DNA of 35,774 bases, from assembly GCA_902769875.1 (NCBI GenBank), contig CACXQV010000006.1, positions 75,759 to 111,532 on the forward strand, read 5' to 3'. The first letter of the stretch is position 1. Every line of letters starts with the position of its first letter. The stretch comes from an uncultured Bacteroidia bacterium. Lineage in GTDB: Bacteria > Bacteroidota > Bacteroidia > Bacteroidales > F082. Below are positions 3,839 to 35,197 of this stretch, piece after piece. The translations under genes were made by a program, and so were the position numbers. The notes beneath the pieces are model-generated. The model made no database searches. It saw only the letters and a program-made list of their open reading frames with translations, and had not been told where the DNA came from.

Positions 3839-3911
3839 GCTTGCCGGGGTGCTGCCACGGGTCGCGACCCGTGGTTACGGGATGTTTCGCCCTCTGGGCG
3901 AGGCACGGTCG
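3839..3911. repeat. REP-like two-hairpin element, copy A
   Basis: The element opens GCTTGCCGGGG, contains a perfect 20-nt palindrome (3855-3874, centre GTCGCGAC), then GGTTACGGG and a second hairpin TCGCCC-tct-GGGCGA (3887-3901), and ends near CGGTCG. A second copy lies at 35098-35197. Stem bases differ between the copies but pairing is kept in both hairpins. Copy A sits in the probable 5' leader of the SDR gene. Confidence 0.75.
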
Positions 3912-5365: not shown

Positions 5366-5395
5366 GGCTTCCCATCTGGGAGGCCTTTTCTTTTT
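5366..5395 (+). terminator. Rho-independent terminator
   Basis: An 8-bp stem, GGCTTCCC (5366-5373) with GGGAGGCC (5378-5385), has a 4-nt ATCT loop and is followed by TTTTCTTTTT. It lies 26 bp after the stop of the oxoamine synthase and directly before the 33-bp repeat array. Confidence 0.85.
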
Positions 5396-6232
5396 ATTCC
5401 CCAAGAAAAATGTGATAAATTGCTAAATATTCCGCAAAAAAGAGTGGTGATTTGCCAAATATTCCGCAATAAAAGTGTAGTAAATTGTTGGATATTCCCC
5501 AAGAAAAATGTAGTAATTTGTCGAATATTCCCAAAGAAAAGTGTGATAATTTGCCGAATATTCCACAATAAAAGTGTGGTAAATTTCCGAATATTCCCAA
5601 AGAAAAGTGTAGTAAAATGCCAAATATTCCCCATTAAAAGTGTAGTGAATTGTCAAATATTCCCCAAGAAAAGTGTAGTGATTTGTAGAATATTCCCCAA
5701 AAAAGTGTGGTAATTTGTAGAATATTCCCCAAGAAAAGTGTAGTGATTTGCTGATTATTCCCCAATAAAAGTGTAGTAATTTGCTGATTATTCCCCAATA
5801 AAAGTGTGTTAAATTGCCAAATATTCCACAATAAAAGTGTAGTAAGTTGCTGGATATTCCCGAAGAAAAGTGTAGTAAGTTGTCGAATATTCCCCAAGAA
5901 AAGTGTGTCAAGTTGTCGAATATTCCCCAAGAAAAGTGTCGTGAATTGCCAAATATTCCCCAAGAAAAGTGTGGTGATTTGCCGAATATTCCTCAATAAA
6001 AGTGTAGTAAGTTGCTGAATATTCCCCAAGAAAAGTGTAGTGATTTGTCGAATATTCCCCAAGAAAAGTGTGGTGAATTGCCAAATATTCCACAATAAAA
6101 GTGTTGAGAATATACGAATATTCCCAAATAAAAGTGTAATAATTTGTCGAATATTCCACAAGAAAAGTGTAGTGAATTGTTGAATATTCCACAATAAAAA
6201 TGTATAGATTTTCCAAATATTCCCAAAAATAT
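5396..6232. repeat. 33-bp imperfect tandem repeat array (~25 units)
   Basis: From 5426 to 6215 there are 24 complete units, 22 of 33 bp and two of 32 bp (starting at 5426 and in the 5690-5721 region), with a degenerate unit at each end. The consensus is roughly AATATTCCCCAAGAAAAG then TGTAGTGATTTGTCG. The blocks ATATTCC, AAAAGTGT and TTG are most constant. The triplet before each AATATT varies (CCA, TCG, CTG, TTG, TAG), and the middle has two forms, CCAAGAAAAG and ACAATAAAAG. Each unit holds the palindrome AATATT. All frames on both strands are largely stop-free because 33 is a multiple of three, but the two 32-bp units shift any frame, so I do not call a protein. No intervening unique spacers exist, so this is not a CRISPR. 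Confidence 0.95.
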
Positions 6233-19239: not shown

Positions 19240-20373
19240 ATGAGCAAGTCGATAAACATTTTGGACAAGGATTATATCCAATGGATCAAGGAATTGAGCA
19301 GCCGTTACCGCAGAAGCCAAATCAAGGCGGCGGTGAAGGTGAACGAGGAGATGCTACGGTTTTATTGGGAACTGGGGCGGGATATTGTGGAGAAAAAAGC
19401 CGAAAGTCGATGGGGCAGCGGGTTTATGAAGAATTTGAGTTATGATTTGAAAGCAGCTAACCCTGATGCTACTTGTTTTTCGCAAACGAACTTGTTGTAT
19501 ATGAAGAACTTCTATCTTCTTTTTCCTCCCCAAACGGAAATTGCTCCCCAAGTTGGGGAGCAATTGGAGCCAGCAAACAAAATCACTCCCCAACTTGGGG
19601 AGCAAAATAAAACTGTTCAAGTTGAACAGGCTGGCACTCCTTTGTTTATGATTCCGTGGGGACATTATAAACTCTTGATTGATAAATTCAAGAAGAAAAT
19701 GTCTCACAAAGAAGCCTGGTTTTATGTGACAAAAACCATAGAAAACGATTGGAGTAGAGATATGTTGCTTAATGTTATTGACTCCGACCTTTATCATCGT
19801 GAAGGAAAGGCTTTGTCAAATTTTTGTTCAACATTGCCCAAGGAATTAGGAAGTCTCGCCCAAGAACTTACAAAGGACCCTTACGACTTCGCTTTCACGG
19901 GAATAACAGGGTGCTACAATGAGCGTTTGTTGAAGGATGCCTTGCTGAACAACATCACCCAATTTATGGTGGAACTCGGAACTGGATTTGCATACGTTGG
20001 CAAGGAATACCGGATACAAGTGGGTGAAAGGGAGCAGTTTATTGACTTGCTTTTCTATAACCTGAATCTGTCGTGCTATGTGGTCGTTGAGGTGAAAATC
20101 GGGAAGTTCGAGTTTGCCGACGTGGGGCAGTTGGGAGGCTATGTCGTTTCGTGCAACCATATTCTCCGCAAGGAAGGCCGCGACAATCCCACCATTGGCC
20201 TGCTCATCTGCAAGGAGAAAGACCGCATCCAAGCCCAATATGCCTTGGAATCGAGCAGCCAGCCTTTGGGAATATCGGAGTACGAGTTGGAAAAGTTCTA
20301 TCCCGAAAAAATAGAAGGCACGATTCCGACCATCAAGGAGATTGAGGAGAAGTTGAAGGATTTTCCGGGGTGA
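19240..20373 (+). CDS. DUF1016 (YhcG-like) PD-(D/E)XK nuclease family protein, copy 1
   Basis: The ATG at 19240 is chosen because it follows the promoter-like repeat and starts the family N-terminus; a longer reading from 19168 would run through the terminator. The N-terminal DUF1016 helical domain has SRYRRSQIKAAVKVNEEMLRFYWELGRDIVEK and WGSGFMKNLSYDLKA, then TNLLYMKNFYLLFP. A linker of about 35 residues (about 100-132) is built from palindromic DNA. The C-terminal nuclease domain has FIDLLFYN with D269 and VVVEVKIGKFE with E284 and K286, then GQLGGYV and GLLICKEKD. YhcG-like proteins are probable DNA nucleases often found near restriction-modification or defence loci. Total 377 residues. 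Confidence 0.9.
   Translation: MSKSINILDKDYIQWIKELSSRYRRSQIKAAVKVNEEMLRFYWELGRDIVEKKAESRWGSGFMKNLSYDLKAANPDATCFSQTNLLYMKNFYLLFPPQTEIAPQVGEQLEPANKITPQLGEQNKTVQVEQAGTPLFMIPWGHYKLLIDKFKKKMSHKEAWFYVTKTIENDWSRDMLLNVIDSDLYHREGKALSNFCSTLPKELGSLAQELTKDPYDFAFTGITGCYNERLLKDALLNNITQFMVELGTGFAYVGKEYRIQVGEREQFIDLLFYNLNLSCYVVVEVKIGKFEFADVGQLGGYVVSCNHILRKEGRDNPTIGLLICKEKDRIQAQYALESSSQPLGISEYELEKFYPEKIEGTIPTIKEIEEKLKDFPG
19539..19629. repeat. Three in-frame palindromes in the DUF1016 linker
   Basis: Palindrome 1 spans 19539-19565, 27 nt and perfect around a central G. Palindrome 2 is 19586-19602 (CTCCCCAA-C-TTGGGGAG), the core of palindrome 1 with the central base complemented. Palindrome 3 is 19613-19629 (CTGTTCAA-G-TTGAACAG). 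All three are read in the same frame and encode APQVGEQ, TPQLGEQ and TVQVEQ. Confidence 0.9.
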
Positions 20374-27451: not shown

Positions 27452-27625
27452 ATGGAACAATCTCAAATAACAAAGGAATATATTCAGGCAGTAAAAGCCA
27501 TCAAACAGGCCATCTTTGAAAATCGTCCGTTGTCAACGGACGATTTAGAAATTTCAAGGATTTTGGTGGGTGACAATGATTATATTGCAATTCGCCCGCT
27601 AACGGCGGACGATTTAATTTCTTAG
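27452..27625 (+). pseudogene. 57-residue remnant, probably the N-terminus of a DUF1016 gene
   Basis: A short open frame runs from ATG 27452 to TAG 27623-27625. Its start (TKEYIQAVKAIKQAIFENR) looks like the opening helix of DUF1016 proteins. It then passes into two related segments, RPLSTDDL and RPLTADDL, each encoded by a palindrome-like sequence. The first is a perfect 27-nt palindrome at 27520-27546; the second is decayed (about 27590-27615). Nothing of the nuclease domain remains. The duplicated leader before this ORF and before the intact gene at 27727 supports a truncated duplicate. It could also be a small expressed protein; I see no way to exclude that from sequence. Confidence 0.5.
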
Positions 27626-27726: not shown

Positions 27727-28773
27727 ATGACAAACGAAATAATAGACACCAATAGAATAGCACAAATCAGCGACAACCTTTATCAGGGCGTTTCAGAAAT
27801 CATCGACAACGCCATGCAAAGGGTTGCTGTTTATGTCAATGCACAGTCGAGTATGACGTTCTGGAATGTCGGCAAGTACATCATAGACGACATGGACTAT
27901 CAAACCTATTCGGCATACGGACAAAAGATTCTTGCGACGCTGTCGCAAAGATTGATGGCTCGTTATGGGAAAGGATACACTTATTCCGCATTGACAAGGA
28001 TGATGAAAGTGGCTCGTATTTATGGCAATAGGGAAATGTTTGCGATGCTGTCGCAAACATTGACTTGGAGCCATTTTTTGGAACTTATCACTATTGAAGA
28101 CGGCACAAAGCGGCTCTTTTACCAACAAATGGGCATTGCGGAGCATTGGAGTGTGAAGCAACTGCGAGACAAACAGGATGAAATGGCATACGAGCGTTCA
28201 CTGATAGCGGCAAAACCCGACGACAAGATTGCCAAAACCTTGGAAAGGATATGTCCACAACACATGGAGCCAGATGTCGTGTTGAAAAGTTCGTATGTGC
28301 TTGACTTCCTTGGATTAAGCGGTTATTATTCGGAGGAGGAACTGGAAGCAGCCATTTCCAAGCAGTTGGAGAATTTCATCCTTGAATTGGGACAGGGCTT
28401 TGCTTTCTTGGAAAGGCAAAAACGTTTCACCATCGACGGAACAGACTATTATCTTGACTTGCTCTTCTATCACAGGAAACTGAAATGTTTGGTTGCCATC
28501 GACTTGAAACTTGGCAAATTCAAACCTCAATACAAGGGGCAAATGGAACTCTACTTAAAGTATATCCAAAAGTATGATATGCAATCAGGTGAGAATCCTC
28601 CTATTGGGTTGTTGCTTTGCAGCGAAGGCAATACGGAACATATCGAACTATTGATGCTGGATGAGGATAATATCAAGGTGGGGCAATACACCACATATCT
28701 GCCCGACAAGCAATGGTTTATCGACAAATTGAACCGTTCAATCCTCATTGCAAAAGAATATGGAACGAAATAG
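27727..28773 (+). CDS. DUF1016 (YhcG-like) PD-(D/E)XK nuclease family protein, copy 2
   Basis: The 348-residue protein has the N-terminal DUF1016 helices (NAMQRVAVYVNAQSSMTFWNVGKYIID, then GKGYTYSALTRMMKVARIYG), the family signature LTWSHFLELITIED followed by LFYQQMGIAEHWSVKQLRDK, and the C-terminal nuclease domain. The catalytic core is YYLDLLFYH with D244 and VAIDLKLGKF with D259 and K261, followed by GQMELYLKYI and NPPIGLLLCSEGN. The acidic residue before Lys is Asp here, where copy 1 has Glu. Two palindromes encode LATLSQ and FAMLSQ in the helical domain. It is only distantly similar to the first DUF1016 protein, so this is not a recent full duplication. Codon use is AT-rich compared with pbpC downstream. 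Confidence 0.9.
   Translation: MTNEIIDTNRIAQISDNLYQGVSEIIDNAMQRVAVYVNAQSSMTFWNVGKYIIDDMDYQTYSAYGQKILATLSQRLMARYGKGYTYSALTRMMKVARIYGNREMFAMLSQTLTWSHFLELITIEDGTKRLFYQQMGIAEHWSVKQLRDKQDEMAYERSLIAAKPDDKIAKTLERICPQHMEPDVVLKSSYVLDFLGLSGYYSEEELEAAISKQLENFILELGQGFAFLERQKRFTIDGTDYYLDLLFYHRKLKCLVAIDLKLGKFKPQYKGQMELYLKYIQKYDMQSGENPPIGLLLCSEGNTEHIELLMLDEDNIKVGQYTTYLPDKQWFIDKLNRSILIAKEYGTK
27932..28060. repeat. Two in-frame palindromes in the second DUF1016 gene
   Basis: TTGCGAC-gct-GTCGCAA lies at 27932-27948. A 25-nt palindrome with a 10-bp stem and TGCTG loop lies at 28036-28060, containing the same core TTGCGAYGCTGTCGCAA. Both are read in the same frame (ATLSQ and AMLSQ). Confidence 0.85.
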
Positions 28774-35097: not shown

Positions 35098-35197
35098 GCT
35101 TGTCGGGACGCTGCCGTAGGTCTCTGCTGTAGGTGTATGCCGTAGGTCGCGACCTACGGTTACGGGTTGTTGCGTCTTTCAGACGCGGGGTCGGTCG
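35098..35197. repeat. REP-like two-hairpin element, copy B
   Basis: This copy opens GCTTGTCGGGACGCTGCC, as copy A does, then has an extra ~24-bp insertion with CTGTAGG/CCGTAGG motifs. A perfect 20-nt palindrome follows (35140-35159, centre GTCGCGAC), then GGTTACGGG and a second hairpin, GCGTCT-ttc-AGACGC (35172-35186). The rest of this spacer (35198-35329) shows no gene; a short GC-poor stretch precedes the convergent gene's stop. Confidence 0.8.

Follow-up and report, generated by a model that had tools for sequence, protein, structure and literature searches.

The DUF1016 locus and its palindromes

The 35.8 kb window, by which we mean the whole stretch of DNA analyzed here, includes a DUF1016/YhcG nuclease gene with three perfect palindromes inside its coding sequence (Table 1). 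In a comparison with Pfam profiles, the encoded protein matches only PF17761 (DUF1016_N, E-value 4.6e-34) and PF06250 (YhcG_C, E-value 1.3e-54). It contains the E-D-(E/D)xK catalytic residues, and the same four positions are retained in 431 of the 432 genes of a redundant set, a near-invariance suggesting that catalysis is selected. The original prediction, made from the sequence of the window, proved accurate in the positions and lengths of the three palindromes, in placing all of them in a single reading frame, where each is centered on codon position 1, and in the peptides that they encode (PQVGEQ, PQLGEQ and VQVEQ). The central base of the second palindrome is indeed complemented relative to the first, which is simply what an odd-length core looks like when read on the opposite strand. 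Site 1 is identical in three near-identical genes (L020-L022).

Table 1. DUF1016-related features of the window (positions in the window; a dot denotes no strand)
Feature	Position	Strand	Comment
DUF1016/YhcG nuclease gene (377 aa)	19240..20373	+	ORF, start taken at ATG 19240; PF17761 and PF06250; PADLOC PDC-S02
DUF1016_N, predicted DNA-binding part	19294..19800	+	PF17761, residues 19-187; second half ParB-HTH-like in some relatives
Predicted recognition helix, profile columns 78-89 (here C79, T83, L86, N90)	19474..19509	+	substitutions here are correlated with changes at address offsets 7 and 8
Site 1, predicted self-binding site AATTGCTCCCCAAGTTGGGGAGCAATT, 27-bp perfect palindrome	19539..19565	.	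address GCT..CC; paired over all 27 bp
Site 2, 17-nt perfect palindrome	19586..19602	.	inner core as in site 1, center base opposite; inner 17 nt and one outer pair
Site 3, 17-nt perfect palindrome, possibly weak	19613..19629	.	inner 17 nt and one outer pair; differs from site 1 at offsets 4-6
Lys144 codon (column 133), another predicted determinant of specificity	19669..19671	+	column 133 is correlated with offsets 4 and 5
PD-(D/E)XK nuclease domain with E228, D269, E284, K286	19861..20325	+	PF06250, residues 208-362
DUF1016 remnant mini-ORF (57 aa, read by eye)	27452..27625	+	holds palindrome 27520-27546 and a near-palindrome downstream
Second DUF1016 gene	27727..28773	+	no perfect linker palindrome of at least 12 nt

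The window contains four further perfect palindromes of at least 17 nt, one of which lies inside the DUF1016 remnant. In this mini-ORF, a DUF1016 N-terminus is joined straight to a palindromic linker, approximately 100 nt upstream of the second DUF1016 gene. Two 20-nt palindromes, at 3855-3874 and 35140-35159, have a common core, GGTCGCGACC, and different outer arms. A separate repeat region (5395-6224) consists of about 25 copies of a 33-nt unit (81% match) and is open in several minus-strand frames. The segment 20446-25908 encodes a large DUF4011/AAA/MTES_1575 helicase-nuclease with matches to the PADLOC models PDC-S37 and Hhe; the NCBIfam ProA and Hhe matches are both under their cut-offs. 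Given the proximity of this gene, the DUF1016 gene is likely to belong to a defense island.

A palindromic element in the linker of DUF1016 genes

Comparison of DUF1016/YhcG genes from several bacterial phyla shows a 27-bp element, AAWW-NNN-C-NN-CARSYTG-NN-G-NNN-WWTT, at one place in the gene. Strong linker palindromes (score of at least 8) were detected in 124 of 159 non-redundant genes, taken from 322. That score is reached by 14 of 1506 length-matched control segments of these genes and by 49 of 3180 sequences in which the linker peptides were recoded synonymously; at a score of at least 12, the respective numbers are 46, 2 and 0. The claim that the palindromes exceed what protein selection alone would produce is thus borne out, and chance codon use is rejected as an explanation. 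The remaining 35 genes lack a strong linker palindrome. Of the 124 strong palindromes, 116 are odd and centered on codon position 1 and eight are even; in two genes (L007 and L306), even 28-nt palindromes centered on CGCG represent a variant spacing of the site. Among 191 non-identical full-length genes, 179 palindromes of at least 15 nt fall in the linker, which accounts for a tenth of the length, and 19 elsewhere.

The element is present at different phylogenetic depths. Linker palindromes of at least 15 nt were found in 67 of the 80 close relatives fetched, and the genome from which the window comes encodes 14 DUF1016 genes (19 matching stretches), several of which carry different perfect palindromes at the same place. 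Distant family members from viral contigs and named plasmids also show linker palindromes. Of 14 annotated records, chosen for diversity among 74 rows listed, ten reach a score of 8 (Hymenobacter, Pseudomonas, Paraburkholderia, Iodobacter, Pseudanabaena, Curtobacterium, Spirosoma, Vibrio, a gut phage and Wolbachia phage WO) and four do not (Nostoc and Rhodococcus, 7 each; Enterobacter, 6; Nocardioides, 5). The register is nearly uniform, with 586 of 590 odd linker palindromes in one codon phase and, in the held-out set, 93 of 94 in the expected register.

In 139 genes selected for the presence of an odd palindrome, the fraction of paired bases at offsets 1 to 13 from the axis is 0.79, 0.94, 0.98, 0.93, 0.97, 0.99, 0.96, 0.94, 0.80, 0.79, 0.79, 0.82 and 0.79, and it drops to 0.29 at offset 14, which delimits an element of 27 bp with AATT-like ends. 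Within this constant scaffold, some bases are highly variable: between genes with 60-80% protein identity, offsets 9, 8, 7, 5 and 4, hereinafter the address, differ in 0.41-0.73 of the pairs, whereas offsets 6, 3 and 2 differ in at most 0.04. In this register, the second position of a codon faces a third position across the axis, and first positions face each other. Accordingly, a silent change in one arm can be matched by an amino acid replacement in the other, as in CCA CAA GTT GTG versus CCC CAA GTT GGG, so that it is the symmetry of the DNA that is conserved and not the peptide. Nucleotide comparison of the linkers thus agrees with the expectation that the arms would vary between genes with pairing retained; the converse pattern, linkers that keep the peptide and lose the palindrome, had been named as the outcome that would speak against a role of the palindromes, and the opposite was observed, with palindromes persisting while peptides change. 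Between sites of the same gene, the bases at offsets 4 and 9 are often not the same. Among same-genome paralogs from 12 genomes, none of the 60 pairs has an identical address (raw count).

Co-variation of address bases with protein residues

We compared address bases with the aligned residues across 2300 gene pairs at 55-92% identity, controlling for identity and for the other address positions; the code was learned only on palindrome-bearing genes (231 of the genes with a linker, 202 of them unique). Profile column 82 is the closest correlate of offset 7 (r 0.51; next column, 0.26), column 85 that of offset 8 (r 0.47; next, 0.28), and column 133 that of both offset 4 and offset 5 (r 0.60 and 0.33; next, 0.18). 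No clear partner column was found for offset 9 (best r 0.22), and offset 1 is associated with columns 159 (r 0.44) and 130 (r 0.37). When the address is summed, columns 133, 85, 89, 87 and 78 rank highest outside the linker (0.43-0.35), followed by 62, 55 and 52 (0.35-0.31); 20 permutations reach 0.07-0.20. Columns 78, 82, 85 and 89 are spaced as one face of a helix. Correlation also extends to columns 52-64, outside this helix (up to r 0.35), so some linkage or gene conversion is likely.

The pairings are specific. In the discovery set of non-redundant genes, Arg82 occurs with G(-7) in 59 of 60 cases and other residues with G in 4 of 77; Glu85 occurs with C (9/9), Tyr85 with T (20/20), Leu85 with C (9/10), Met133 with G (12/12) and Lys133 with CC (9/11). 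These tables count complementary pairs only, which for column 82 are 137 of 142 in the discovery set and 89 of 90 in the held-out set. Arginine-guanine and glutamate-cytosine pairings are familiar from protein-DNA contacts.

Predictions were fixed in writing before 116 new loci were read, comprising 114 genes, 100 of them non-redundant and 90 with a usable 27-mer. In this held-out set, Arg82 occurs with G in 52 of 53 genes, and G occurs in one of 36 genes with another residue. At column 85, the pairings are Glu-C (10/10), Tyr-T (16/16), Trp-T (15/15) and Phe-T (10/11); Lys85 is less clean (G in eight genes, T in six), and Leu85, a pairing not among the written predictions, occurs with G twice and with T once. 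At column 133, Ile is found with A (21/23), Met with G (1/1) and Lys with CC (2/3), and Leu is mixed.

The association also holds on a phylogenetic tree of 248 genes, constructed with columns 76-135 excluded. It shows 44 changes of Arg82 and 46 of G(-7); in 41 cases the two share a branch, always in the concordant direction, and among disjoint closest pairs on the tree, 89 of 94 fit the Arg82-G rule and five do not. Glu85 changes nine times, every time together with C(-8). Co-change is partial for an aromatic residue (or Met) at column 85 with T(-8) (18/31), for Ile or Leu at column 133 with A(-4) (14/39), and for Arg, Lys or Val at column 133 with C(-4) (10/46). Of the 982 residue labels tested, Arg82 is the best for G(-7), with a Jaccard index of 0.84 compared with 0.17 for the next one; for offsets 4, 8 and 9, no label tested exceeds 0.22. 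The residue-base code is very tight for column 82 and looser at the other positions. The gene in the window fits it, with T83 (column 82) paired with T, L86 (column 85) with C and K144 (column 133) with CC, a fit that is no independent test because the gene belongs to the discovery set and the Leu85-C pairing failed in the three held-out Leu85 genes. The proposal that the palindromes are a recognition target of the encoded nuclease gains strong support from this co-variation of address bases with DUF1016_N residues, in the form of predicted binding.

Genomic distribution of the sites

The sites are nearly confined to DUF1016 genes or their remnants. In the genome that contains the window, six of the seven scaffold matches are in DUF1016 linkers and the seventh is non-palindromic. 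In 99 genomes of the same genus, we detected 30 scaffold places in 25 genomes; the reversed scaffold pattern has no match in these 99 genomes. Among the 25 places examined, DUF1016 ORFs account for 21 and linker remnants, recognized by eye, for two; the last two are an orphan array and a chance match. Of the other five, three lie by coordinates inside DUF1016 matches and one in the DUF1016 linker of L596; the fifth is G089:C25. The orphan array (L583:1485-1665) consists of about six palindromes with no DUF1016 ORF and is located approximately 310 nt before a type III Mod-like methyltransferase gene (both judged by eye). In viral contigs, where 80 of the 87 reported stretches were examined, the six sites with a fully complementary address are in four DUF1016 ORFs, one fragment and one degenerate DUF1016-like stretch; the remaining places that were looked at are mostly in other genes (polymerase-like and helicase-like) and were read as chance matches. 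DUF1016 genes themselves are abundant, with matches in 88 of the 99 same-genus genomes and up to 25 per genome. On an Iodobacter plasmid (L293:1284-4941), a DUF1016 gene is located between hsdM and hsdS, and on an Enterobacter plasmid, such a gene is adjacent to hsdS and a type I restriction gene.

The address of a gene also recurs in its own 5' region. Requiring at least 14 of 16 matching bases, we found such copies in 10 of 255 genes and in none of 765 foreign-address controls; the 255 genes are distinct by exact 5' sequence only, so that close relatives (L190 and L198) are counted separately. Six copies are centered 26-36 nt before the start codon, one at -58, and three within the N-terminal coding part, at +54 to +57, so that just 7 of the 255 genes have a copy upstream of the start codon. 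Another 5 of the 255 genes, and none of 765 controls, have a copy located 183 bp past the linker site, and downstream of the stop codon, no own-address copy was found in the 255 genes. The second copy in the N-terminal coding part is seen in L190, L195 and L198, with a similar stretch in L005 (13 of 16 bases); in L186, the N-terminal address-like stretch encodes LRQAVAV. The idea that the 5' and linker copies might be brought together by DNA looping was dropped: the spacings of the upstream copies are 309-407 bp, with no evident helical phase.

Similarity to known DNA-binding proteins

A palindrome read by a helix-turn-helix (HTH) protein brings to mind the ParB-parS and Noc-NBS systems. The HTH_ParB profile matches 10 of 36 family members at an E-value of at most 1 (best 8.4e-5); the protein in the window has no match to it at an E-value of 0.001, and an hhalign comparison of DUF1016 with ParB is weak (probability 6.7%). 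No relative with a solved structure was found. According to the accessible text of PMC7383237, ParB R173 bonds guanine 1 of parS, R204 contacts parS, and Noc R201 reads position 6. By our own reading of the parS consensus, guanine 1 is the seventh base from the axis, so that R173-G1 would correspond to Arg82-G(-7), a likeness that is positional; Lys144 can be tentatively placed at the R204 position from its spacing to the SH/GH motif. In B. subtilis, parS-359 lies inside the parB gene, as described in the accessible part of PMC4442127. The differences are also clear: DUF1016 proteins contain a PD-(D/E)XK nuclease domain, and the N-terminal CTPase domain of ParB (ParBc) is not seen among the 25 of 28 Pfam families listed for 36 members; the DUF1016 site is odd, 27 bp long, occurs with many addresses and lies inside its own gene family-wide. 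In relatives, no parS-like site (up to two mismatches to the B. subtilis consensus) was found in 25 parB loci, and no palindrome of at least 15 nt inside the 16 parB ORFs located. DUF1016 may thus work like a ParB/Noc-type reader by analogy, with any assignment to that family tentative.

A second parallel is LmbU, which the accessible text of PMC6510168 describes as an HTH homodimer that binds the palindrome CGCCGGCG and represses its own gene; the same text mentions no nuclease domain and places the described target in promoters, in both respects unlike DUF1016. The LmbU regulator model gives sub-threshold matches in 12 of 36 DUF1016 members (best E-value 7.7e-5; 20 bits in the example shown, with the cut-off at 125). 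For YhcG itself, DNA cleavage and a helical N-terminal domain of unknown fold were predicted by Kosinski in 2005 (PMC1189080), the accessible text of which mentions no DNA-binding site or palindrome. The gene in the window is a member of these YhcG/DUF1016 PD-(D/E)XK nucleases, which PADLOC catalogs as a phage-defense candidate (PDC-S02).

Homing endonucleases recognize a site that is outside their own gene or is interrupted by it, whereas the DUF1016 site lies intact inside its own gene. The Rickettsia palindromic elements and PARCELs are likewise palindromes inside coding DNA; as the accessible texts present them (PMC4316617; PMC2996958), the former are dispersed and the latter are DUF285 repeats, in contrast to the DUF1016 palindrome, with its one family, one place and residue-base code. 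The PARCEL hallmark, a DUF285 repeat protein, is absent from the window protein, given its two Pfam matches.

A putative self-binding site and the alternatives

We propose that the palindrome is probably bound by the product of the very gene that contains it, with DUF1016_N acting as a homodimeric HTH domain of the ParB/Noc type, and that binding probably represses the nuclease gene. Each subunit would read one half of the 27-bp site, consisting of the constant scaffold and five variable bases; columns 82, 85 and 133 would be responsible for offsets 7, 8 and 4-5, respectively. As the site is encoded between the determinant codons, specificity and target would travel together, and paralogs would carry different addresses. 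The bound protein could act at an intragenic operator or as a roadblock, and in some genes, repression might be aided by the second copy just upstream of the start codon. What the computation shows is the existence of the site, the pairing of its arms, its near-restriction to DUF1016 genes and the co-evolution of residues with bases; from these we infer dimer binding, and repression as its consequence. Several observations speak against this model: the small number of upstream copies, the 35 genes without a strong palindrome (to which the second DUF1016 gene of the window can be added), the missing partner column for offset 9, the failure of Leu85-C in the held-out genes, the partial co-change at columns 85 and 133, the correlations with columns 52-64, the weak similarity to ParB and the differences between sites of one gene. 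Autorepression is favored as the most economical role because of the promoter-proximal own-address copies and the LmbU precedent (accessible text of PMC6510168).

The main alternative is self-addressed cleavage, whereby the protein would bind and cut DNA with its own address, either excluding sibling copies of a mobile element or driving linker recombination. The nearly invariant catalytic residues and the specificity of the 27-bp address are compatible with this scenario, as are the existence of truncated DUF1016 copies, the presence of DUF1016 genes on plasmids and in phage or viral records, and the mosaic appearance, by eye, of some linker arrays between paralogs (e.g., L169). However, each resident gene would also be cut unless protected, and no general protecting methylase was identified, with type I restriction-modification neighbors in 2 of the 14 annotated records fetched; we therefore regard this scenario as unlikely. 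A related and equally tentative view, which we also doubt, is that DUF1016 proteins are self-addressed nucleases that recognize, and under some conditions cut or guard, DNA carrying the 27-bp address of their own frame. Were it correct, mutual exclusion or conversion of sibling mobile elements with the same address would follow, and paired changes of residues 82, 85 and 133 and the address bases would give rise to new addresses.

Neutral palindrome correction, in which template switching would pair the arms without any function, accords with the variability of the address, each base of which alone looks free, but leaves the restriction to one family, the conserved scaffold and the Arg82-G pairing unexplained and is contradicted by the held-out Arg82-G result; we consider it very improbable. 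Selection for an mRNA hairpin would account for complementarity with compensatory changes, but the mismatches inside the element show no wobble preference (G.T 34, A.C 40, other 13), the address bases follow residues in other parts of the protein, and copies also lie upstream of the start codon, which makes this explanation hardly credible. A selfish in-frame element of the Rickettsia kind, suggested in the original prediction, is just as implausible: copies do multiply within the linker (two or more near-palindromes in 153 genes of the redundant set), and this part of the suggestion stands, but dispersal does not, given the single place, the single phase and the near-absence of sites outside DUF1016 genes and remnants, both in the genome that contains the window and in the same-genus genomes. 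A structural target of the cruciform or Holliday junction type was favored midway through the analysis, as YhcG resembles junction resolvases (accessible text of PMC1189080) and the inner bases vary between copies, and was dropped because the variable bases track specific residues.

Implications

No prior report of a DUF1016 self-address was found in the literature searched, in which subscription papers were largely not included, nor was a described function or target for DUF1016/YhcG. Judging from the sequence comparisons described here, a widespread nuclease family appears to carry the palindromic address of its own protein within its coding sequence, with both evolving together. If the proposed self-binding is correct, this would be a rare case of one stretch of DNA serving both as part of the code for a protein and as the binding site of the same protein. 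Hundreds of natural protein-site pairs would become available for learning a protein-DNA recognition code, and each DUF1016 gene would announce its own DNA target, making this family of unknown function directly amenable to experimental testing.
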